NCBI GenBank assembly: GCA_020853135.1
Contig: JADYZO010000034.1
Location: forward strand, 27,413 to 91,412
DNA: 64,000 bases
Direction of reading: 5' to 3'
Source: Gammaproteobacteria bacterium
Lineage (GTDB): Bacteria > Pseudomonadota > Gammaproteobacteria > Steroidobacterales > GCA-2729495
Below, piece by piece: positions 51,014 to 64,000 of the stretch. Position numbers and translations under genes: made by a program. Position 1 is the first letter of the stretch. The number at the start of each line of letters is the position of its first letter. Below the pieces are notes generated by a model, which was not told the DNA's origin, did not search any database, and saw only the letters and a list, made by a program, of their open reading frames with translations.

Positions 51014-51492
51014 TCCTCGTACTCCCGGTAGAAGCCCTGGGCATGGATGGCCTCGGCGTTGCGCTGGTCGGTGCGCCCGCGCGACTCGATGCGATAGTGC
51101 AGTTGCGTGAAGCTGACGCTCGAGCCGATGGCATCATGGGTTCTGCCGGCGGCGCACAGGCGCACCTCGTACCGCCCCTTGAGCTGCGGCAGCGGTATCG
51201 GGGTGCCCCAGGGCAGCTCCGTTGCGCTCCAGGGGCCGGGTGTGGCCGGGCAGGCCGGCACGGCATCGAGGTCGATGGCATTCGCCTCCACGCGCCGCAG
51301 GGTGGCCTGGATGCCGGACTCCGCCAGCTGGAAGGCGTTTTCGCGGAACTGGGCATTGCCCGCCATGGTGAGGTTGAGCGTGGCCGTGCGCATGGCGGAG
51401 ATGGCCAGCACCGTCAGCACCATCAGCACGACCAGGCCGACGATCAATGCGGCCCCGCGCTGGGTGCCGCCAGCGGGTGTCCGCGGGTTCAT
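51010..51492 (-). CDS. pilX: Type IV pilus assembly protein PilX-like (cluster B)
   Basis: RGAALIVGLVVLMVLTVLAISAMRTATLNLTMAGNAQFRENAFQLAESGIQ; ATG at 51492. Confidence 0.87.
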   Translation of the reverse strand: MNPRTPAGGTQRGAALIVGLVVLMVLTVLAISAMRTATLNLTMAGNAQFRENAFQLAESGIQATLRRVEANAIDLDAVPACPATPGPWSATELPWGTPIPLPQLKGRYEVRLCAAGRTHDAIGSSVSFTQLHYRIESRGRTDQRNAEAIHAQGFYREYEE

Positions 51493-52457
51493 CGGGCCAC
51501 CTCGTTGCGCAGCAGGATGGTCTTGGTGACCTCCACGCGCTGGAACTGTGCCGGGTAGGCGTCGTTCCCGGGCGTGATGGCGGCGGCATGGCCGTCGAGC
51601 GGCTGGTAGCTGTGCGTGTCGCGAAACGCCGCGCCGGGGGATTCCTCGGACCGCACCAGCAGCCACAGGCGCACGGCGACGATGCGTGCACCCTCGAGAT
51701 AGCCGCTGGCGCCGGGAGTCAGCGCCGGGCTGTCGGGATCGACATAGCGCTCCACGTGGCCATCGCCGTTGGTGTCCAGGCCGAACTGCACCTGCAGGTT
51801 TTCCACCCCGGTGATCATCTCCTGGTCCTCGACCACCCCGCCCTTGATGAGCGTCAGCCGGCGCAGCGACGGCATGTCGGCGGCGAAGCTCGAGGAATTG
51901 TCGACGTAGTAGGCGTGCACCTCGAGGTCGCGGACCTCGCCGGTGGCGGCGTCGAGGTCGGCCGGCACGACGCCGTCGTCGAAGATGCGCGCCATGGCGA
52001 GATCGCTGGCGACCTGCGGCTGTCCGGCATCGGGGCTGGCGCGCAACGCGCCGGCGTGGCGGATGAACAGCACGTCGCTGCCGGCCCTTGCACTGCCGTG
52101 CGGGGGGCAGCCGGCAATGCCGTAGGCATCGTCGCTGGCGGCGACCGGGTGATCCAGGGCAAGGACCCAGGCGCTGGCATCGGCACCGGCGCAGGTCACG
52201 GCGATGCCCGTGGCATCGGGGACGAGGGCGGTGTTCGTGCTCGGGCCCCAGAACCCGGCCAGCCGCAGGTCGGGCTCGATGGCCTCCAGCGCGAAGCGGG
52301 CGTTCTCCTGCAGCCGGGTCGCCACCTCGGCGGCCTGGTAGTTGCCCTTGCTCTGGATGTACACCGCGAAGGCGCCCCAGATGAGGAACAGGCCGATGGC
52401 CATGGCCACCATCAGCTCGATCAGGGTCATGCCGCGGGACTGGCGCCGGGTGCTCAT
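51489..52457 (-). CDS. pilW: Type IV pilus assembly protein PilW-like (cluster B)
   Basis: GMTLIELMVAMAIGLFLIWGAFAVYIQSKGNYQAAEVATRLQENARFAL; ATG at 52457. Confidence 0.88.
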   Translation of the reverse strand: MSTRRQSRGMTLIELMVAMAIGLFLIWGAFAVYIQSKGNYQAAEVATRLQENARFALEAIEPDLRLAGFWGPSTNTALVPDATGIAVTCAGADASAWVLALDHPVAASDDAYGIAGCPPHGSARAGSDVLFIRHAGALRASPDAGQPQVASDLAMARIFDDGVVPADLDAATGEVRDLEVHAYYVDNSSSFAADMPSLRRLTLIKGGVVEDQEMITGVENLQVQFGLDTNGDGHVERYVDPDSPALTPGASGYLEGARIVAVRLWLLVRSEESPGAAFRDTHSYQPLDGHAAAITPGNDAYPAQFQRVEVTKTILLRNEVAR

Positions 52458-52921
52458 AGCTGCAGGGCCAGCGCGTAGCTCGCCGGCGCCTCCTGCCCGA
52501 CCTCGGGCCACGACAGCGTGATCACGTACTCGCTGACCGGGGCCAGGTCCTGCCGCGCGATCGCCGCGGTGGCCCCCGCCGGCAGGCGCCGGCGCAGGTC
52601 CTCCAGCCAGCGATACCAGTCATCGGCAGCCAGGTCACTGGCGCTGCAGTCCGCGGCGCCGTTGACGCAGCCCATGTCGGCGCCCGGTCCGCTGCCGGCG
52701 TAGGAACCGGCCGGATTGGCCCGGATGCGGTCGGCCATGTCGGCGGCCAGCGTGACCGCGGCGCCACGGTAGACCGCGGTGCGCCCCGCGTGCAGCCCCT
52801 CGACGTAGAGCCCGGCGATGCCGAGCAGGCCCACGGCCATGACCACCAGGGCGACGAGCACCTCCACCAGGCTGAACCCGCGGGCAGGCCGGGTCATGCG
52901 GTGCGCTGCCATGCTCAGCAC
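52454..52921 (-). CDS. pilV: Type IV pilus modification protein PilV-like (cluster B)
   Basis: GFSLVEVLVALVVMAVGLLGIAGLYVEGLHAGRTAVYRGAAVTLAADMADRIRAN. Confidence 0.88.
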   Translation of the reverse strand: MLSMAAHRMTRPARGFSLVEVLVALVVMAVGLLGIAGLYVEGLHAGRTAVYRGAAVTLAADMADRIRANPAGSYAGSGPGADMGCVNGAADCSASDLAADDWYRWLEDLRRRLPAGATAAIARQDLAPVSEYVITLSWPEVGQEAPASYALALQL

Positions 52922-53529
52922 CCCCCCAGCGGGTTGGCGGGCGCCTGCAGGCGCACGACCTGGCTCACCAGCACCGTGTTGCCTGCCGGGCCGATGCTGA
53001 TCCAGCGCCCGGCCGCGCGCCCGCCACCGGTGTCGCGGTTGCCGCGGTCATCGCAGAGCTGGATGTTGCGCACGCCGGGGCGTGCGCCGACACCGGCCGG
53101 GAAGCCATCGGCGCGGAAGGAGAGGAACTGGGGCATGCCGCCGTCGGCCGCCGTGCGGGCCTGCAGGCGGATGCGGTCGTCGAGCGGGCCGTGGACCTGC
53201 AGCACGGTCTCCCCCGGGCCGGCCGCGGCATCGCCATCGGCGTCCTCGAAGACGATCCAGCCATCGAGCAGCGAGGCATCGGCGGCGCAGTGCGGCGCCG
53301 GTGCGTCCCAGTCGCGGCTGGCGCACAGCGTGACCGGCAGGCTGCGGCTGGAAGCCTGCGCGCGCGCGGCCTGGATGCTGCTCACGAGGTCATTGGCCGC
53401 CACGGTCATGCGCCCGTTCGCGGCCATGCTGGTCATCGCCGGAACGCCCAGTCCCAGTGTCAACGCCAGCACCATCATCAGCACGAGGAGCTCGATGAGG
53501 GTGAAGCCTTCTTGGTGCTTCTTGCCCAT
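52915..53529 (-). CDS. GspH/FimT-type pseudopilin (cluster B)
   Basis: EGFTLIELLVLMMVLALTLGLGVPAMTSMAANGRMTVAANDLVSSIQAARAQASSRSLPVTLCAS. Confidence 0.86.
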   Translation of the reverse strand: MGKKHQEGFTLIELLVLMMVLALTLGLGVPAMTSMAANGRMTVAANDLVSSIQAARAQASSRSLPVTLCASRDWDAPAPHCAADASLLDGWIVFEDADGDAAAGPGETVLQVHGPLDDRIRLQARTAADGGMPQFLSFRADGFPAGVGARPGVRNIQLCDDRGNRDTGGGRAAGRWISIGPAGNTVLVSQVVRLQAPANPLGGC

Positions 53530-53622
53530 CGGCTCCCATCCTGCCGCGTGCGCCGGCCGGAAGCAGCCCGGTCCGATGGGCGGCGGGCTGACACGGATGA
53601 GCGGGCAGGGTGGTGCAGGCGC

Positions 53623-54156
53623 TCAGCCGGGGCATGTCAGTGCCTTGCCGTCGGCGGCCCGGCGTGAGACGCGTGGCCGGCCGCTGTAGCTGACGATGAC
53701 GGCCCGGGCGCCGGCGCCGCCACGGGTATCGCAGAACACCACCGTGCCGTTCGTGGCCCGCACCGCGTGGGGGTGCAGGGCATAGGCGCGCCGGTTGCTG
53801 CGGATGGAGGCGAGCGGCAGCGCCGTGCTGGCGGCGAGCACGCGCTCCCCGGGATCGACCGTGGCGGGGTCGTCGCCGTCGAGGTTGACGAAGACCAGCC
53901 AGCCGCTGGCCCAGTCGCCGGCCGGGGCGCAGTGCGCCGCGTCCAGGCTGCGGCAGACGACGACATCGCGTGCCTGGGTGGCCGCGGTGGCCCGCGCGAG
54001 CTGGATGGCGTGGACGAAGCCGTTCACGGTGGCCACCATGCGCGCATCGAGCAGCCACTGGCGACATAAGGGGACGGCGGCGGCTGCCAGCGTCGCGATG
54101 ATGATGAGCGCCAGCAGCAGCTCCAGCAGCGTCAGGCCACGAGATTGCCCACCCAT
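53623..54156 (-). CDS. GspH/FimT-type pseudopilin, first gene of cluster B
   Basis: RGLTLLELLLALIIIATLAAAAVPLCRQWLLDARMVATVNGFVHAIQLARATAATQARDVVVCRS. Confidence 0.85.
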   Translation of the reverse strand: MGGQSRGLTLLELLLALIIIATLAAAAVPLCRQWLLDARMVATVNGFVHAIQLARATAATQARDVVVCRSLDAAHCAPAGDWASGWLVFVNLDGDDPATVDPGERVLAASTALPLASIRSNRRAYALHPHAVRATNGTVVFCDTRGGAGARAVIVSYSGRPRVSRRAADGKALTCPG

Positions 54157-54855: not shown

Positions 54856-55458
54856 ATGCGGCTCATCGTCGGGATTTCGGGTGCCAGTGGCGCCATCTAC
54901 GGCATCCGGCTGCTGGAGGTCCTGGCGGGCCAGGCCGATATCGAGACCCACCTGGTCATCAGCCACGGTGGACGGCGCACCCTGGCCCTGGAGACCAGCC
55001 TCGGCCTGAAGCAGGTGGAGAAGCTGGCGAGCGTGGTCCACAGTGACCAGGACCTGGCCGCCAGCATCGCCAGCGGCTCCTTTCCGACCGATGGCATGAT
55101 CGTCGCACCCTGCTCGATGAAGACGCTGTCGGCCATCGCGCATTCCTACGCCGACACGCTCATGGTGCGCGCCGCCGATGTGGTGCTCAAGGAGCGCCGG
55201 CGGCTCGTGCTGGTGCCGCGGGAGACGCCGCTGCACAGCGGGCACTGCGAGCTCATGCACAAGGCATCCCTGATGGGTGCCATCATCGCGCCGCCGGTGC
55301 CGGCCTTCTACAACGGGCCGCAGTCCGTGGACGACATCGTCAACCACACGGTCGGCCGGCTCCTCGATCTGTTCGGCATCGACAGCGGTGTCGTCCGGCG
55401 CTGGCAGGGCGGGCGGGCGGTGCGCCGCGCGGCGGGGCGGGCGAAAGCACGGCGATGA
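54856..55458 (+). CDS. ubiX: Flavin prenyltransferase UbiX
   Basis: MRLIVGISGASGAIYGIRLLE, PTDGMIVAPCSMKTLSAIAHSYADTL, RRLVLVPRETPLHSGHCELM. Confidence 0.95.
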   Translation: MRLIVGISGASGAIYGIRLLEVLAGQADIETHLVISHGGRRTLALETSLGLKQVEKLASVVHSDQDLAASIASGSFPTDGMIVAPCSMKTLSAIAHSYADTLMVRAADVVLKERRRLVLVPRETPLHSGHCELMHKASLMGAIIAPPVPAFYNGPQSVDDIVNHTVGRLLDLFGIDSGVVRRWQGGRAVRRAAGRAKARR

Positions 55459-56211: not shown

Positions 56212-58965
56212 ATGGTCGTACAGGAAACGAGGGGGCATCGCCGTCCAGGCGGTTATTGCCAGTTCGCCAGGGGATCCGCCTTTGCGACTGCTGCACTGCT
56301 GCTGTCGCCGCAGTGTCCGGCTGCAAGTCCGGGCCCCGGCATCGACGAGATTGTCGTGACGGCCCGCAAGTTCGACGAACGGCTGGTGGATGTACCGCTG
56401 GCCATCACGGCCTTCAGCGAGCAGTCGATCGAGTCGGCCGGCATCACCGACCTCACCGACATCGCCCACATGACACCCGGCCTGCAGTTTTACGAGGCCG
56501 CCGGGTACCTGGCCACCCCGATCATCCGTGGTGTCGCACCCACCGAAATCAAGGCACGGGAAACCAATGCCGCCATCTTCGTTGATGGTGTCTATGTCTC
56601 GGCCCGCGAGGGTCTGAACTTCAGCCAGCTCGACATCGAGCGCATCGAGGTCGTCAAAGGCCCGCAGAGCGCACTCTACGGCCGCAATGCCTTCAGCGGG
56701 GCGATCAATTTCATCACCAAGCGGCCCAGCGATGTCTTCGAGGCCAGGACCGCCCTGACTGCAGGCAACCGTGGCAAGTTTGCCGCAAGCGGCTCGGTCA
56801 GTGGTCCGGTCATCGCCGGCACCCTCAAGGGTCGCATTGGTGTGAGCTACGATGGCTGGGACGGCTCCTACGACGATCCGTTGTATGACCAGGACGTCGG
56901 TGGTCACACGTTCCGATCGGTGCAGGGCAGCCTGCTCTGGACGCCTGTTGAAACGCTGGACGTCTTCGCCAAGGTCTACTATTCCAATGATGACATCTCG
57001 CAGGTTGCGGCCGCCGCGGTACAGGCGAACTGCGAGGATGCGGCCATCCACAATCCCAAGCTCAGGAGCGCCGCCGGGGTGCCCTACAACAGCCCGATCA
57101 TGAGCAACTACTGCGGGGAAATCCCCATGGTGTGGTCGGGCAATGACCTGCCGATGGCTCGCGGTGCCGGCGGCGAGAATCGCGAGGTGTTTCGCAGCAG
57201 CCTGAACATCGACTGGAGCCTGGGCGTGGGCACGATCAGTGCGCTGACCGGCTATGTCGACACCAAGTGGGATGCCATCGTCGATTTTGGCCGCCTCGGC
57301 GACAGCACCCCCCTGGTGTACTGCATCGGCACCTGGCAGTCCCCCAGCTGCAACAACAACAATACACCCACGCCGCTGAAACGGTTTTTCAGCGGCATCA
57401 TCAATCGCGAGCCGGGTACCGAAGACAGGGAGTTCAGCCAGGAACTGCGTTTTTCCAGCCCACGGGACAGGTCCTTTCGCTGGTCTGCGGGCGGCTACTA
57501 TTACAACGTGCGTTTCGAGGACATGGGCTTCCAGGCTTTCCTGACCAGCCCGCTCCCGGACGACCTCCGGCCACCAACCATATCCGACCCGCTGGATCCC
57601 AATTACGGCATTGGCTCGGGTGCCTTCTGTCCCTGCCAGCCCATGGGGCCCGGCAGGTATCTGGCACCCTACGGCAACGGGCTGTTCGTCACCGATCCGG
57701 GGTACAACAACGACCAGATCGAGTCCATCACCAGGACGCGCTCCTGGGCGGCATTTACTTCAGCGGAACTGGACTTTCTGGAGCGCTGGACGTTGCGCGG
57801 CGAGCTGCGCTACACATGGGAGACGAAGCAATACCGGCAATGGATCGTTCCGGAACTCCAATACCAGGATAACGGCGTCTATCCGCGGCGCAGCGAAGAT
57901 CATCTGCGGTCCCACGACAGCTGGGATTGGGTGAGCGGGCGCCTGACGCTGGACTACAAGACGGATAGCGGCTGGCTGGTCTACACGTCACTGGCCAATG
58001 CCAGCAAGAGCGGTGGTTTCACGGGCGAGAAACCGAAATTCATCAATCCGGTCACGCAGGCCAGTGGCCCTGCGATACCCATCGTCGAACCCTATGATCC
58101 GGAGAAGAACTGGACCGTGGAGGCGGGCATCAAGGGGCGCACGGCCGACCGTCGCCTGGGAATCGACCTCTCTGTCTACCGCATCGACTGGACCGACATC
58201 GTGTTGCCGCAGGTGCTGATGGAGTACGTGGATCCCACCGATGGCGTCCTCAAGGGCACGGCGGAGACCATCACCCTGATGCGCAATACCGGTGATGCCA
58301 CCGTGTGGGGCTGGGAGTTGCAGACCGACCTGCTGATCAACGATGCATGGAGCGCGGGCCTCGGCGTGTCGTATACCGACTCCACCTGGGACCGCGCGAA
58401 GCAGGCTTCCTACCAGTTCTTCCCGAGCTTCTACACCACGGATCCGGACTGTTCGCCAGCGGCGATCTACGCCTTGCCGACGACGCCTGTCAACGAGCGG
58501 GCGCCCAGGGTCAATGCGTGCGCAGCCGCTTCCGGCGATATCTCGGGTCAGCAGCAGTTGCGGGTTTCGCCGTGGACGGTGAATGCCACCCTGCAGTACC
58601 GGCACCAGCTGGTTGATCACTGGGATTTCTACGGCCGTACCGACGTGAGCTGGCGGGACAAGTGGTACACGGGCAGCGACAACCAGAACTGGATACCGCC
58701 CTCGACCTTCGTCAATCTCCGTCTCGGCGTGGAATCCGGCCGATACACCATCGAGGCTTTCGTGGACAACCTCTTCGGCTTCAGCAAGCCGATCGGCGCG
58801 TACCGCGACATCTTCCGCAGCAATACCCAGGACATCTATTCGCGCAACAACCCGCCGACCAGCTCGATGGGCGACTTTCCGCCCATGCGCGAGACGATCA
58901 ACCTGCCCAATCTGCGGACCTGGGGTCTCACGGCGCGGGTGCGTTTCGGCAATGCGGTGCGATGA
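56212..58965 (+). CDS. TonB-dependent receptor
   Basis: TonB box-like DEIVVTARKFDERLVDVPLAITAFSEQSIESAGI; plug IIRGVAPTEIKARETNAAIFVDGVYVSAREGLNFSQLDIERIEVVKGPQSALYGRNAFSGAINFITKRP; C-terminal LRTWGLTARVRFG. Confidence 0.93.
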   Translation: MVVQETRGHRRPGGYCQFARGSAFATAALLLSPQCPAASPGPGIDEIVVTARKFDERLVDVPLAITAFSEQSIESAGITDLTDIAHMTPGLQFYEAAGYLATPIIRGVAPTEIKARETNAAIFVDGVYVSAREGLNFSQLDIERIEVVKGPQSALYGRNAFSGAINFITKRPSDVFEARTALTAGNRGKFAASGSVSGPVIAGTLKGRIGVSYDGWDGSYDDPLYDQDVGGHTFRSVQGSLLWTPVETLDVFAKVYYSNDDISQVAAAAVQANCEDAAIHNPKLRSAAGVPYNSPIMSNYCGEIPMVWSGNDLPMARGAGGENREVFRSSLNIDWSLGVGTISALTGYVDTKWDAIVDFGRLGDSTPLVYCIGTWQSPSCNNNNTPTPLKRFFSGIINREPGTEDREFSQELRFSSPRDRSFRWSAGGYYYNVRFEDMGFQAFLTSPLPDDLRPPTISDPLDPNYGIGSGAFCPCQPMGPGRYLAPYGNGLFVTDPGYNNDQIESITRTRSWAAFTSAELDFLERWTLRGELRYTWETKQYRQWIVPELQYQDNGVYPRRSEDHLRSHDSWDWVSGRLTLDYKTDSGWLVYTSLANASKSGGFTGEKPKFINPVTQASGPAIPIVEPYDPEKNWTVEAGIKGRTADRRLGIDLSVYRIDWTDIVLPQVLMEYVDPTDGVLKGTAETITLMRNTGDATVWGWELQTDLLINDAWSAGLGVSYTDSTWDRAKQASYQFFPSFYTTDPDCSPAAIYALPTTPVNERAPRVNACAAASGDISGQQQLRVSPWTVNATLQYRHQLVDHWDFYGRTDVSWRDKWYTGSDNQNWIPPSTFVNLRLGVESGRYTIEAFVDNLFGFSKPIGAYRDIFRSNTQDIYSRNNPPTSSMGDFPPMRETINLPNLRTWGLTARVRFGNAVR

Positions 58966-58980: not shown

Positions 58981-60660
58981 ATGACCGTTCCAGATGATGA
59001 TTCGCCCCAGCTGGACCGGCGCACCCTCATTTCGTCGGCAGCCGGTCTGGCTGTCTCCACGGCAGGCCTTCCCGTGCTGGGTGCAGAGGCCAGAAAGGGC
59101 GCGCCAACGACTGCGATTCGGAAGGACAGCACCCGGACGGGCGCCCGGGCATCTTTCCCGTACGACAGCTTCCGGGACTGGATCGCCGCACTGGACGACC
59201 ATGGCCTGCTCATGCGCGTGGGGCGCCTGGACCAGGACGCCTACGAGGTGACCGCCCTTGCCTACCGGCTCGTCGACAGGTTCGGATGGTACGGCGCGCC
59301 AGCAGTGCTTGCCGACGAAGTGAAGATCGATGGCCGTTGGGTCAAGGGTCCGCTGCTGTTCAATCACCAGGGCCACTGGAAGACCGAGCCGCTGCTTCTC
59401 GGGCTGGAGCCCGGCAATACGACCGACCGGCATGGGTACCGGGCGGCGGTGGACCATTTCCTAGGTATCCTCGAGGCCAACGGCGGCAAGGTGCCGCAGA
59501 TTGCGCCGGTAACGGTGGATGCGGGCAAGGCGGCAGTCAAGGAGGTGATCCTGCGCGGTGACGCGATAGACCTGACGCAGTTTGCCTTCATCCAGTCCAA
59601 TCCGGGTGATGGCGGCCGCTACATCACGACGGGCTCGGTGTTCACCTCCGACCCCGAACTCGGCATGAACTTCGGCACCTATCGCTGCCAGCTGCGCGGG
59701 CCAAGGCTCATCGGCGTCAATCCGGAACCCGGTCAACGCGCCTGGAAGATGTTCATGGCCCAACGCGAGCGGGGGGAAAAACTGGCGAAGGTGTCCATCG
59801 TGCTCGGGCAGGACCCGATGATGTGGGTGGTGAGCGGATCGGCCCTGACCAAGGGCATGCTGGATGATGAGCTGGCGATCACCGGAGGCCTGCGGGGCAG
59901 GGCGGTCGAGGTGGTGCGGTCGGAGACCAATGATCACATGGTTCCCGCCCATGCCGAGATGGTGATCGAGGGCGAGGTGCCGCTGCAGGAGCCCATGCTG
60001 CCCGAAGGACCTTTCGGCGAGATGTTCGGTTATCTCGGCCGCAGGAAGGACGAGAATTTCTGGATGCGGGTCACCTGTGTCACGCATCGCAGGAATCCGT
60101 GGATCCTCAACCAGTTCACTGGCGTGACCCCGGGCTTTTGCCGTGTGCCGATGGATGCGCTGGCGCTCTACCGCCTGAGAAAGGTGTTCCCCGATGTGCT
60201 TGCACTGGATTCGGTGGGAGGTGCTACCGGGTGGATCGTCGTCACCATCGACAAGAAGAAACGGGGCCAGGCACTGGAGGTCGGCAGGCGGCTGGCACAG
60301 ACCAGCATCTCCGCCAAGATCATTGTCGTGGTGGACAAGGATGTGGACGGTACGAACCTCGACGAGGTGATGCATATCGTCGGATCGCGCTGGCAGCCGT
60401 CCCCGGCTGCCGAGATTCTCGATGACATGCCGGGCATACCACTTGATCCGAGCGCGGTCAAAACGGGCAGGTCAAGCAAGATCATCATCGATGCCACCCG
60501 GCAGTGGCCAGAGGAAGGTGGCCCGCCGGTCTACCAGGAACTCAACCGCGAGCTGCTGACCAGGCTGGCGCCGGCGGCAATTCCCCAGGTGGATTCACGG
60601 TGGGAGCGCTATCTGGCTGGCTGGAAGCAGGGCAGGTGTTTCCCCGCTGCGGGCGACTGA
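58981..60660 (+). CDS. UbiD-family decarboxylase with Tat-like N-terminal leader
   Basis: QLDRRTLISSAAGLAVSTAGLPVLGAEA leader; UbiD blocks VPAHAEMVIEGEVP, EGPFGEMFGYLGRRKDENFWMRVTCVTHRRNPWI. Confidence 0.88.
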   Translation: MTVPDDDSPQLDRRTLISSAAGLAVSTAGLPVLGAEARKGAPTTAIRKDSTRTGARASFPYDSFRDWIAALDDHGLLMRVGRLDQDAYEVTALAYRLVDRFGWYGAPAVLADEVKIDGRWVKGPLLFNHQGHWKTEPLLLGLEPGNTTDRHGYRAAVDHFLGILEANGGKVPQIAPVTVDAGKAAVKEVILRGDAIDLTQFAFIQSNPGDGGRYITTGSVFTSDPELGMNFGTYRCQLRGPRLIGVNPEPGQRAWKMFMAQRERGEKLAKVSIVLGQDPMMWVVSGSALTKGMLDDELAITGGLRGRAVEVVRSETNDHMVPAHAEMVIEGEVPLQEPMLPEGPFGEMFGYLGRRKDENFWMRVTCVTHRRNPWILNQFTGVTPGFCRVPMDALALYRLRKVFPDVLALDSVGGATGWIVVTIDKKKRGQALEVGRRLAQTSISAKIIVVVDKDVDGTNLDEVMHIVGSRWQPSPAAEILDDMPGIPLDPSAVKTGRSSKIIIDATRQWPEEGGPPVYQELNRELLTRLAPAAIPQVDSRWERYLAGWKQGRCFPAAGD

Positions 60661-60750: not shown

Positions 60751-61731
60751 ATGACCACAGCCTGTGTCTTTGGCCTCGGTGCCATCGGCGGCTATCTTGC
60801 TGCGCGCCTGGCGCTGGCCGGTGTGCGGGTCACCGCCATCGCCCGCGGTGCCACGCTGGAGGCGGTGCGCAGCCGTGGCCTGGTCCTCATCGAGCAGGGC
60901 CGGCGCGAGACCGTGCAGCTGCGCACCGCGGCGAGTGCCGCGGAGGCCGGCCAGCAGGAGGTGGTGTTCCTGGCGCTCAAGGCCAATGACCTGCCGGCGA
61001 TCGCCGCCGGGCTGCGCCCGGTGCTGGGGCCGGGTACCGCGGTCGTCACCATCGGCAATGGCTTTCCCTGGTGGTATTTCTTCCGCTCGCCATCGGGGAG
61101 CATCAACCCGACGCTCACCACGGTGGATTCGCGGGGACTGCTCTGGCGGCTGGTGGGGCCCGAGCATGCCGTCGGCTGTGTGGCCTATCCGGCCGCCCGC
61201 GTGCCGGAGCCCGGTGTCGTCGAGCACATCTACGGCACGCGCTTCTCGCTCGGTGAACCTGACGGTTCGTTGTCCGGGCGCGTGCAGCGCATTGCGGCGA
61301 TGCTGGCCGCTGCCGGGCTCGATGCTCCGGTGCGCCGGGATATCCGCACCGAGATCTGGACCAAGCTCGCGCTCAATGCGGCCTGCAATCCGGTGAGCCT
61401 GCTCACCGGCGCGACGCTCGGCCAGATGATCGAGGATGCCGGTACCGCGGGGATACTGCAGACGCTGATGCAGGAGACAAGTGCGGTCGCTGCCTCGCTC
61501 GGCGTGCGGGTGCCGCTGCAGCCGCGCCAGCTGCTCGAACTCACGCGACCGCTGGCCCGGCACAAGACCTCGACCCTGCAGGACCTGGAGGCAGGCCGGT
61601 CGATCGAGCTTGAGCCGGTGGCCGGTGCCGTGGCCGAGATCGGCCGCCTGCGCAACGTGCGCACGCCGGCGCTGGATGCCACGCTCGCGCTGGCACGCCT
61701 GCGGGCGCGCCTGGCAGGCTGCCATGGTTGA
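60751..61731 (+). CDS. Ketopantoate reductase (PanE/ApbA)-family oxidoreductase
   Basis: CVFGLGAIGGYLAARLALAGVRVTAIARG Rossmann; FLALKANDLPA; EIWTKLALNAACNPVSLLTGATLGQM. Confidence 0.88.
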   Translation: MTTACVFGLGAIGGYLAARLALAGVRVTAIARGATLEAVRSRGLVLIEQGRRETVQLRTAASAAEAGQQEVVFLALKANDLPAIAAGLRPVLGPGTAVVTIGNGFPWWYFFRSPSGSINPTLTTVDSRGLLWRLVGPEHAVGCVAYPAARVPEPGVVEHIYGTRFSLGEPDGSLSGRVQRIAAMLAAAGLDAPVRRDIRTEIWTKLALNAACNPVSLLTGATLGQMIEDAGTAGILQTLMQETSAVAASLGVRVPLQPRQLLELTRPLARHKTSTLQDLEAGRSIELEPVAGAVAEIGRLRNVRTPALDATLALARLRARLAGCHG

Positions 61732-62623
61732 GCCGCCCGCTGCCGATGGGGCCCTGCTGTCCCATGCGCAACGGCTGCGCGCCCTGCTGGCGGGCCCGGC
61801 CTTCATCGCTCCGGGCTGTTACGACGCACTGACCGCACTGCTCATCGAGCAGGCGGGTTTCGGCTGCGGCTACGTGAGCGGCGCCAGCGTCGCCTTCACG
61901 CGCATCGCCCGCCCGGACCTCGGCCTGACGACGCTGACGGAGGTGGCCGGGATCGTGGGCTGCATGCGCGAGCGCATGGAGATGCCGCTGCTGGTGGATG
62001 CCGACGACGGCTTCGGCAATGCGCTCAACGTGCAGCGCACGGTGCGCCTCCTCGAGCGCATGGGCGCTTCCGGCATCCAGCTCGAGGACCAGGCCAGCCC
62101 CAAGCGCTGCGGCCACCTGGCCGGCAAGCGGCTGGTGTCCACCGGGGAGATGCTGGGCAAACTCCACGCCGCGCTCGATGTCCGGGCCGATGCCGACACC
62201 GTGATCGTGGCGCGCACCGATGCGGTGGCCGTGGAGGGCTTTGCGGCGGGGCTGGCACGCGCGCAGGCCTATCTTGATGCGGGCGCCGACGTGCTGTTCA
62301 TCGAGTCGCTGCGCACACCGGAGGAGTTCGCGCACGTCGGGCGCGAACTGGGCAGCCGCGTGCCACTGCTGGCCAACATGGTGGAAGGCGGGAGCAGCCC
62401 GCTGTTCTCGATCGACGAGCTGGGTGACATGGGGTTTCGTCTCGCCATCTTCCCCGGTGCCATGGTGCGGGTCCTCGCGCATGCCGCCCGTGACTACCTG
62501 GCCACGCTGAAGCGCGATGGCAGCACCCGCCGGATGCTCGACCGCATGCTGGATTTCCAGGGGATCAATGCCGTGGTCGGCACCGATGCCCTGCTGGCGC
62601 AGGGCAGGGACTACGAGCGCTAG
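61724..62623 (+). CDS. Isocitrate lyase/PEP mutase superfamily protein (oxaloacetate decarboxylase / methylisocitrate lyase-like)
   Basis: FIAPGCYDALTALLIEQAGF, LLVDADDGFGNALNVQRTVRLLERMGASGIQLEDQASPKRCGH; overlaps upstream gene by 8 nt. Confidence 0.88.
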   Translation: MVEPPAADGALLSHAQRLRALLAGPAFIAPGCYDALTALLIEQAGFGCGYVSGASVAFTRIARPDLGLTTLTEVAGIVGCMRERMEMPLLVDADDGFGNALNVQRTVRLLERMGASGIQLEDQASPKRCGHLAGKRLVSTGEMLGKLHAALDVRADADTVIVARTDAVAVEGFAAGLARAQAYLDAGADVLFIESLRTPEEFAHVGRELGSRVPLLANMVEGGSSPLFSIDELGDMGFRLAIFPGAMVRVLAHAARDYLATLKRDGSTRRMLDRMLDFQGINAVVGTDALLAQGRDYER

Positions 62624-62813
62624 GCGCCCGGGCGCAGTGCCGGGTCCGCCGGACTCGCCACGACCCCTCGTCCCTGGCCGGTTGCGGCGCGATGCGCGGC
62701 TGTATTGCGGATACCGGACGCCCGGCGGACAATTCCCCGCCCGCCCGGTGGCTGGCGTTCCGGCGCTGACGCATGCCCAGGACTACGGGCCTGTTTATTG
62801 CGTAAATATCCGT

Positions 62814-63617
62814 ATGATGCAGAATAAATCGGAATCTGGATGGCAGGTCCATGCCGACGCTGTCGGACCGCTCGATGCCGGCCAGGTCGCCCGCTTCCAC
62901 GCCGCGGGCTACCTCGTCGTGCCGCGGTTGTTCGATGCGGGCGAGGTGGCGGACATCCGCCGCTGGACCGATGAAGTCCAGGGCTGGCCCGAGGTCGCTG
63001 GCCGCCACATGATGTACTTCGAGCATCCGGCCGGCGGCCAGCGCATCCTCAACCGCATGGAAAACCTGCTGCCCTGGCACGACGGTTTCCGTCGGCTGGC
63101 GACCGGGGAAAAGCTGCAGGGTGCCTGCGGCCAGCTCTTCGACGGGCCTGCCGTGCTCTTCAAGGACAAGATCAACTTCAAGCTCCCCGGGGCTGGCGGC
63201 TTCGAGCCCCACCAGGACGTGCAGGCAGGCTGGTCGCGCTATGCCAGCCTGCACATCACCGCGCTGGTCAGCGTGGACCATGCCACCATCGCCAACGGCT
63301 GCCTGGAAATGGCGGCGGACTTCGGTGGCGGGCAGGCGCTGATCGGCAGCGAGTGGGAGCCGCTCGGTGCCGCAGAGCTGGCCGGCCTGCACTGGCGGCA
63401 CATCGAGGCCGAACCCGGCGACGTGGTGTTCTTCGATTCCTTCATCCCGCACCGCTCGGCGCCCAACCACACGGCAGACGCGCGCCGGGTCCTTTACTAC
63501 ACCTACAACCGCGCGAGCGAGGGCGATCACCTCGTCCGGTATTACGCGGACAAACGCCGCAGCTATCCGCCCGACATCGAGCGCGAGGCGGGCCGGGAGT
63601 ACCGCTATCGTGTCTGA
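62814..63617 (+). CDS. Phytanoyl-CoA dioxygenase (PhyH)-family Fe(II)/2-oxoglutarate oxygenase
   Basis: [49 protein letters not shown] (HxD); [20 protein letters not shown] (distal His). Confidence 0.87.
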
Positions 63618-64000
63618 CACGGACGCCAGGGGACAGTCCCGGCCCGCGGCTCCTGCCGCAGGGGAGCCGGCGCACGGCAGGCCGCGCCGCACGACGCGGT
63701 TTCGCCAGCTGCTCCAGGGGTCGGAGCTCGAGTTCCTGCTCGAGGCCCACAACGGCATCAGCGCGCGCATCGGCGAGGAGGCGGGCTTCAGGGGCCTGTG
63801 GGCCGGCGGCCTGTGCATGTCCGCGCAGTACGGCGTGCGCGACAGCAACGAGGCCTCCTGGACCCAGGTGCTCGAGATGCTGGAGTTCATGGTGGATGCC
63901 ACCACCGTGCCCATCCTGCTCGATGGCGACACCGGCTACGGCAACTTCAACAACGTGCGCCGCCTGGTGCGCAAGCTCGAGCAGCGCGGCGTGGCCGCGG
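63610..64000 (+). CDS. pepM: Phosphoenolpyruvate mutase, 5' portion (runs off window end)
   Basis: GTG start overlapping PhyH stop by 8 nt; open frame to window end gives [90 protein letters not shown]; not in ORF track because no stop is inside the window. Confidence 0.88.

Follow-up and report, generated by a model that had tools for sequence, protein, structure and literature searches.

Does the pair of genes at the end of this DNA, an oxygenase of the PhyH family followed by the start of a probable PEP mutase (PepM), open a phosphonate biosynthesis operon and, if so, what does the oxygenase hydroxylate? The window, by which we mean the whole 64,000-nucleotide stretch of gammaproteobacterial DNA that was analysed, carries phyH as the first gene of the run (62814-63617, + strand, 267 amino acids) and, sharing 8 nt with its stop (63615-63617), a GTG-initiated frame on the + strand that starts at 63610 and is open up to 64000. 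The GTG frame, its overlap with the phyH stop and its open end had been described in the original prediction and were all seen again in the sequence. Base 64000 is the true end of a contig (C34) of the window genome (G000). Contig C15 opens with the final 105 bases of the window at 100% identity, the sole such match in the genome, and the PepM frame carries on into C15 to a stop, giving a full protein of 563 amino acids. The join between C34 and C15 is supported because a relative (L014, QUBU01000005.1) has the same genes together on a single 144-kb contig, with a PepM 97% identical throughout. At 105 bases the overlap is slightly atypical compared with the 127 bases of two other joins of the assembly, namely C15 with the reverse strand of C149 (exactly 127 bases) and, elsewhere, C83 with C124. 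Coordinates beyond 64000 refer to the extended window, in which base p of C15 (locus L008) corresponds to 63895+p.

The joined protein is, as far as can be judged from its sequence, a genuine PEP mutase. The 130 residues visible in the window, although a fragment, already scored higher with the PEP mutase family (TIGR02320, 125 bits) than with phosphonopyruvate hydrolase (65) or PrpB (60), and the joined PepM reaches 378.3 bits against a TIGR02320 cut-off of 319.55, while its scores for phosphonopyruvate hydrolase (231, cut-off 374) and PrpB (135, cut-off 354) fall far short. Its identity to Mytilus PepM is 62%, and it keeps D58, D85, D87, E114, K120, N122, S123, R159 and H190, which we take to be the catalytic residues of the Mytilus enzyme. 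The original prediction had recognized the PepM core, had named another ICL/PEPM subfamily such as phosphonopyruvate hydrolase as the alternative, and had proposed looking beyond 64000 for the motif EDKxxxxxNS, a ppd gene, an aminotransferase and a nucleotidyltransferase. The motif is present in C15 as EDKIYPKTNS (L008, near bases 114-143). The pepM gene, which also encodes a C-terminal PF12804 nucleotidyltransferase domain, spans 63610-65301 (the 5' part to 64000 in the window, the rest in L008:1-1406) and adjoins, on the same strand as phyH, a phosphonopyruvate decarboxylase gene (ppd, 65298-66443; TIGR03297, 419.6 bits, cut-off 312.5). The aminotransferase (66459-67568) matches the 2-aminoethylphosphonate (AEP) transaminase family TIGR03301 over its full length and stops 1.7 bits short of the cut-off (359.1 versus 360.8). 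Finally, a separate nucleotidyltransferase related to the cytidylyltransferase PntC, NTPT2, is encoded at 67565-68344 on that strand.

Four more genes follow on the strand of phyH, coding for a small membrane protein with no family match (about 68398-68670, L008:4503-4775), a TagF-like transferase (68670-69842), a YejM-like protein (69844-71637) and a YidC-like protein (71637-73133). The nine genes form an operon on one strand with gaps of -8, -4, +15, -4, +53, -1, +1 and -1 nt. It is preceded by a 190-base intergenic gap (62624-62813) that likely contains the promoter of the operon. Some 15 gammaproteobacterial loci have this gene order; other loci are rearranged, and there the operon adjoins heptosyltransferase and Kdo/WaaP kinase genes, neighbours that hint at lipopolysaccharide (LPS). 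On the 3' side of the YidC-like gene lie a PEP-CTERM-like gene and, further on, MetF-like, corrinoid-protein-like and methyltransferase-like genes, recognized by reading the sequence only; we take all of these to be outside the operon. On the 5' side, UbiX, UbiD, PanE and ICL-like genes were considered as pathway members and rejected: they are syntenic in close relatives only and absent from more distant PhyH-PepM loci. The ICL/PEPM-family paralogue directly upstream of the operon (61730-62620, its ORF ending at 62623), itself syntenic in close relatives, scores best with PrpB (284 bits, below the cut-off of 354) and is likely a C-C lyase, not a PepM. At the N-terminus of the UbiD-family decarboxylase (58981-60660), the sequence RRTLISSAAGLAVSTAGLPVLGAEA resembles a Tat-type signal, which would be odd for a prFMN enzyme; nearby are UbiX (54856-55458) and a TonB receptor (56212-58965). 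On the minus strand, 51489-54156 holds a run of minor pilin/pseudopilin-like genes with the prepilin N-termini MTLIELMVAM, FSLVEVLVALV, FTLIELLVLM and LTLLELLLAL.

The operon thus encodes two nucleotidyltransferase domains, which differ in the residues expected of an active PntC. NTPT2 matches PDB 6pd1 (nucleotidyltransferase/aminotransferase) over its full length with 152.7 bits; judging by its description (nucleotidyl transferase/aminotransferase class V) and the numbering of its residues, we take this structure to be the Treponema denticola PntC-AEPT of Rice et al. Alanine mutants of R15, K25 and K153 in Tde-PntC retain less than 10% of the activity (PMC6697681), and the three residues are kept in NTPT2 of the window and in 41/41 other sequences compared. 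In the PepM-fused domain (L008:660-1406), by contrast, Lys25 is kept while Arg15 is replaced by Ala and Lys153 by Glu. The same holds widely: among 52 fused domains, Lys25 occurs in all, at least 50 have Ala, Glu, Gly or Asp in place of Arg15, and most have lost Lys153; they share instead an almost invariant [ST]RG motif. The residue pattern indicates that the fused domain is conserved yet not a canonical PntC, and it could be inactive, have a regulatory role or work in another way; the PntCs assayed by Rice et al. were, in the parts of the paper covered here, without a PepM fusion (PMC6697681).

For the TagF-like protein we obtained no Pfam, NCBIfam or PDB sequence match, the PDB search being run with a profile of this protein. 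The best PDB fold for its structural model (pLDDT 90.4) is 3l7k, TagF with CDP-glycerol (E 9.5e-10, TM 0.52), followed by capsule polymerases solved with CMP; at a TM of about 0.5 the match identifies a GT-B fold. This modelled likeness to a polyol-phosphate polymerase points to a surface polymer as the acceptor. A search by tblastn against the window, C15 and C149 returned no CDP-alcohol phosphotransferase, and a transferase of the phosphonolipid type is absent from the cluster. Of the phosphonate or phosphonolipid pathway that had been expected beyond 64000, the phosphonate part therefore stands, and a phosphonolipid is less likely for the window genome, because the cluster has no CDP-alcohol phosphotransferase and its transferase has a TagF fold. 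The YejM-like protein combines DUF3413 and Sulfatase domains (assigned in a full-length relative and at the N-terminus of the protein itself), and the YidC-like protein matches 60KD_IMP. The small membrane protein carries an AYLDPSTGS motif, and its gene adjoins the TagF-like gene in most loci, Rokubacteria included. Four rokubacterial loci (L043, L064, L067 and L071) have PhyH, the small protein, the TagF-like protein and a divergent NTPT2, with no PepM in the flank and with YejM-like and YidC-like genes where the contig reaches; the genome of L067 carries PepM and Ppd elsewhere (L130).

What, then, is the substrate of PhyH? The protein matches Pfam PhyH (PF05721) over residues 28-226 (75 bits, cut-off 22) and has the iron triad HxD...H (H133/D135/H213) and a 2-oxoglutarate-binding-type arginine (R224), invariant in 43 sequences. 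Its best NCBIfam match is methylphosphonate hydroxylase PhnY (NF052437, residues 24-259), with 182.8 bits, below the cut-off of 500, a threshold that no protein exceeded among 399 Pseudomonadota. The AlphaFold model (pLDDT 90.8) is nearest to proline hydroxylase H11, SnoN, PHYHD1, GriE and EctD, with no phosphonate hydroxylase among the best fold matches. Because the family score is below its cut-off and the best folds include no phosphonate hydroxylase, the substrate is not readable from sequence or fold. The window genome has a second, distant PhyH paralogue beside a TonB receptor (L131:2618-3182 plus L009:1-324), split over contigs C83 and C124 at their 127-base overlap.

The substrate is better indicated by the company that PhyH keeps. 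A scan of 84,980 species gave 170 relatives, of which 80 were kept. PepM was in the same fetched locus as PhyH in 27 of these 80 (hopanoid genes being present in 3 of the 27 and absent from the other 24), and 42 of the 50 PhyH genomes searched had a PepM over the cut-off; one of the remaining eight, a Rokubacterium, has a PepM with the motif EDKLFPKTNS and a Ppd in a stretch split by the search. In a fixed sample of 369 Gammaproteobacteria, 17 had PhyH, 30 (8%) had PepM and 15 had both. PepM was thus present in 15/17 PhyH genomes versus 15/352 others (Fisher p=1e-16), but since genomes are related and p-values overstate their independence, the safer figure is the count by family, with PepM in 7 of the 8 families having PhyH. 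With a PhyH score of at least 340 bits, all 13 carriers in the sample had PepM, a strict count that leaves out two genomes (G382 and G418, PhyH 213 bits) whose PhyH proteins are probably outside the subfamily, that of G418 being a 35% paralogue. Two genomes of one family (G091 and G232, with scores of about 260 bits) carry PhyH but no PepM and count as exceptions. In G418, which belongs to the family of the window genome, the genes from PepM through the small protein form a run that lacks PhyH, so that hydroxylation is dispensable. A locus of the window's family (L138) holds ICL, the PepM fusion, Ppd, AEP transaminase, NTPT2 and the small protein with no PhyH between ICL and PepM, and is a natural PhyH-less version. 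The position of PhyH varies: the gene can precede PepM, follow YidC or lie in a hopanoid locus at a distance from PepM. The coupling of PhyH to PepM, claimed originally from this one locus, thus proved much stronger, from genome-wide co-occurrence, than could then have been known. Since the PhyH subfamily tracks PepM, its substrate is most likely the phosphonate and its product 1-hydroxy-AEP, a compound which is a known lipid head group in Bdellovibrio stolpii according to work cited in PMC8154272.

Hopanoid genes are the other recurrent company of PhyH. About 44 PhyH loci carry them, representative ones including squalene synthase (SQS), hopene cyclase (SHC, 794 bits), HpnG, HpnN (841 bits) and HpnA (502 bits); in genomes with such loci, PepM clusters lie elsewhere without PhyH, or in the same run. 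Thus two loci (L134 and L135) read, on one strand, SQS-SHC-HpnG-PhyH-HpnN-HpnA-LPG_synthase_TM-NTPT2-PepM-Ppd-AEPT, and in a third (L132) PhyH is missing from this run, which ends with a CDP-alcohol phosphotransferase. A complete AEP pathway is contiguous with various subsets of SQS, SHC, HpnG, HpnN and HpnA in L132, L133, L134, L135, L136 and L139, often accompanied by LPG_synthase_TM and a CDP-alcohol phosphotransferase. Within the 369 Gammaproteobacteria, squalene-hopene cyclase was present in 20 of the 30 PepM genomes (p=4e-12, a value inflated by kinship), PepM and hopene cyclase lay 7-11 kb apart in five genomes, and hopanoid genomes never had PhyH without PepM (13/0 versus 7/33). In a quick tree of PhyH, supported by SH-aLRT only, hopanoid and phosphonate contexts alternate, each with 3 or more forced changes. 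The simplest interpretation is a single enzyme that acts on a single phosphonate substrate and serves different acceptors. The window genome itself, a fragmented metagenome-assembled genome that is 94% complete, gave no match to squalene-hopene cyclase (TIGR01507), and the cyclase is likely, though not certainly, truly absent. A role of PhyH as a hopanoid-synthesis enzyme in the window was rejected, given a genome without hopene cyclase and a PhyH that follows PepM rather than SHC.

Starting from the observed gene content, gene order, motifs, fold and evolutionary tie between PhyH and PepM, we propose, with a probability of roughly two in three, that the window ends in a phosphonyl-tailoring operon, in which AEP would be made, hydroxylated by PhyH, activated with CMP and moved by the TagF-fold transferase to the cell surface. 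In this proposal every catalytic activity, like the order of the steps, is a prediction. PepM would convert PEP to phosphonopyruvate, Ppd would decarboxylate this to phosphonoacetaldehyde, and the transaminase would yield AEP. PhyH would hydroxylate the phosphonate, most likely at C1 (the position and the stereochemistry both being predicted), to give 1-hydroxy-AEP, i.e. the reaction of PhnY* used in synthesis and not in breakdown. The separate PntC-like enzyme would activate the (hydroxy-)AEP as a CMP ester, from which the TagF-fold transferase would pass the phosphonate group to a presumed cell-surface acceptor, probably LPS or a capsule glycan. The small membrane, YejM-like and YidC-like proteins may serve assembly or export, roles that are likewise presumptive.

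The point at which PhyH acts can be read in other ways. Gene order does not fix it, because PhyH is tied to PepM but found in varied places, and the enzyme could hydroxylate CMP-AEP, a glycan or lipid that carries AEP, or C2, in which case 1-hydroxy-AEP would never be the free intermediate. We consider this unlikely, although worth keeping in mind, since small free phosphonates are the substrates of both the nearest curated family and the characterized PhnY*, which acts on AEP at C1 (PMC8154272). It is rather improbable that PhyH puts the hydroxyl on the acceptor (a lipid or sugar) and keeps company with the phosphonate genes because the two modify one and the same molecule. Some Rokubacteria do have PhyH beside TagF-YejM-YidC with no PepM in the flank, and many PhyH genes are in hopanoid loci; nevertheless, the acceptors must differ between hopanoid, TagF and cyanobacterial phosphonolipid types while PhyH stays with PepM in all of them, and the one Rokubacterium checked has PepM and Ppd elsewhere in its genome.

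That PhyH belongs instead to phosphonate breakdown of the PhnY*/PhnZ type, recycling AEP, is very improbable even though its nearest curated family stems from such a pathway: the operon has no HD-domain PhnZ-like gene, and PepM, Ppd, transaminase and cytidylyltransferase with overlapping genes are a synthetic set. Hardly credible is the idea that the PepM-like protein is another ICL/PEPM enzyme, such as phosphonopyruvate hydrolase or methylisocitrate lyase, and that no phosphonate is made; family resemblance and the true ICL-like paralogue just upstream would allow it, and the EDKIYPKTNS motif, the family scores given above and the adjoining ppd all oppose it.

For many Gammaproteobacteria, the window genome not being one of them, the hopanoid loci raise the tentative possibility, which we hold as somewhat doubtful, that PhyH, PepM, Ppd, transaminase, PntC and, in many cases, a CDP-alcohol phosphotransferase belong to a single pathway together with squalene-hopene cyclase, HpnG, HpnN and HpnA, placing (hydroxy-)AEP on a hopanoid or on a lipid made alongside. 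Hopanoids rank among the major lipids of membranes and serve as geological biomarkers. Our literature search, which did not reach Yu et al. 2013, found no earlier report of a link between phosphonates and hopanoids, and the recurrent oxygenase and whole AEP pathways in hopanoid operons suggest a lipid class for which it found no report. Phosphonate hopanoids, if true, would matter for lipidomics and the marine phosphorus cycle. The operon of the window in turn offers a compact testable set, made of a phosphonate-bound oxygenase, a canonical PntC beside a degenerate fused domain, and, as a candidate for the missing transfer, a protein with a TagF fold.

Several known systems resemble parts of this operon. 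TagF/TagB polyol-phosphate transferases use a CMP-activated donor. The window protein shares with them its best PDB fold, TagF with CDP-glycerol, but has no Pfam or PDB sequence match, and its donor would be CMP-(hydroxy)AEP. With PhnY*/PhnY hydroxylases, PhyH shares the family, the Fe/2OG residues and the nearest curated match; it differs in scoring below the family cut-off, in having no PhnZ partner and in its synthetic gene context. Most bacterial phosphonate capacity is directed to cell surfaces, and the steps after AEP are largely obscure, according to Rice et al. 2019 (PMC6697681). The pnt clusters (Ppm/PepM, Ppd, AEPT, PntC) described there share the PepM-PF12804 fusion, Ppd, AEP transaminase and a separate cytidylyltransferase with the Tde-PntC catalytic residues; relative to them, the window operon adds PhyH, the TagF-fold transferase and the YejM-like and YidC-like proteins, and its PepM-fused domain is without the PntC Arg15 and Lys153. 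The 1-hydroxy-AEP phosphonolipid clusters of the Nostoc/Burkholderia type have a 2OG-Fe(II) oxidase with NTPT, pepM, ppd and AEPT. PMC5987646 shows a lichen Nostoc cluster, drawn after Yu et al. 2013 (Fig. 7), with OG-Fe(II) oxidase, pepM, ppd, AEPT, NTPT, CDP-alcohol phosphotransferase and hpnL, and includes HAEP in its abbreviation list. A Nostocales locus of our set (L041) has this layout, with a PhyH 53% identical to that of the window. The CDP-alcohol phosphotransferase and the membrane protein of the hpnL type that are depicted there are both missing from the cluster of the window. PhyH with PepM in phosphonolipid clusters has therefore already been proposed, and hydroxylated phosphonolipids are a known idea; what is added here is the TagF/YejM/YidC layout, the genome-wide tie between PhyH and PepM, the hopanoid operons and the degenerate PepM-fused domain.
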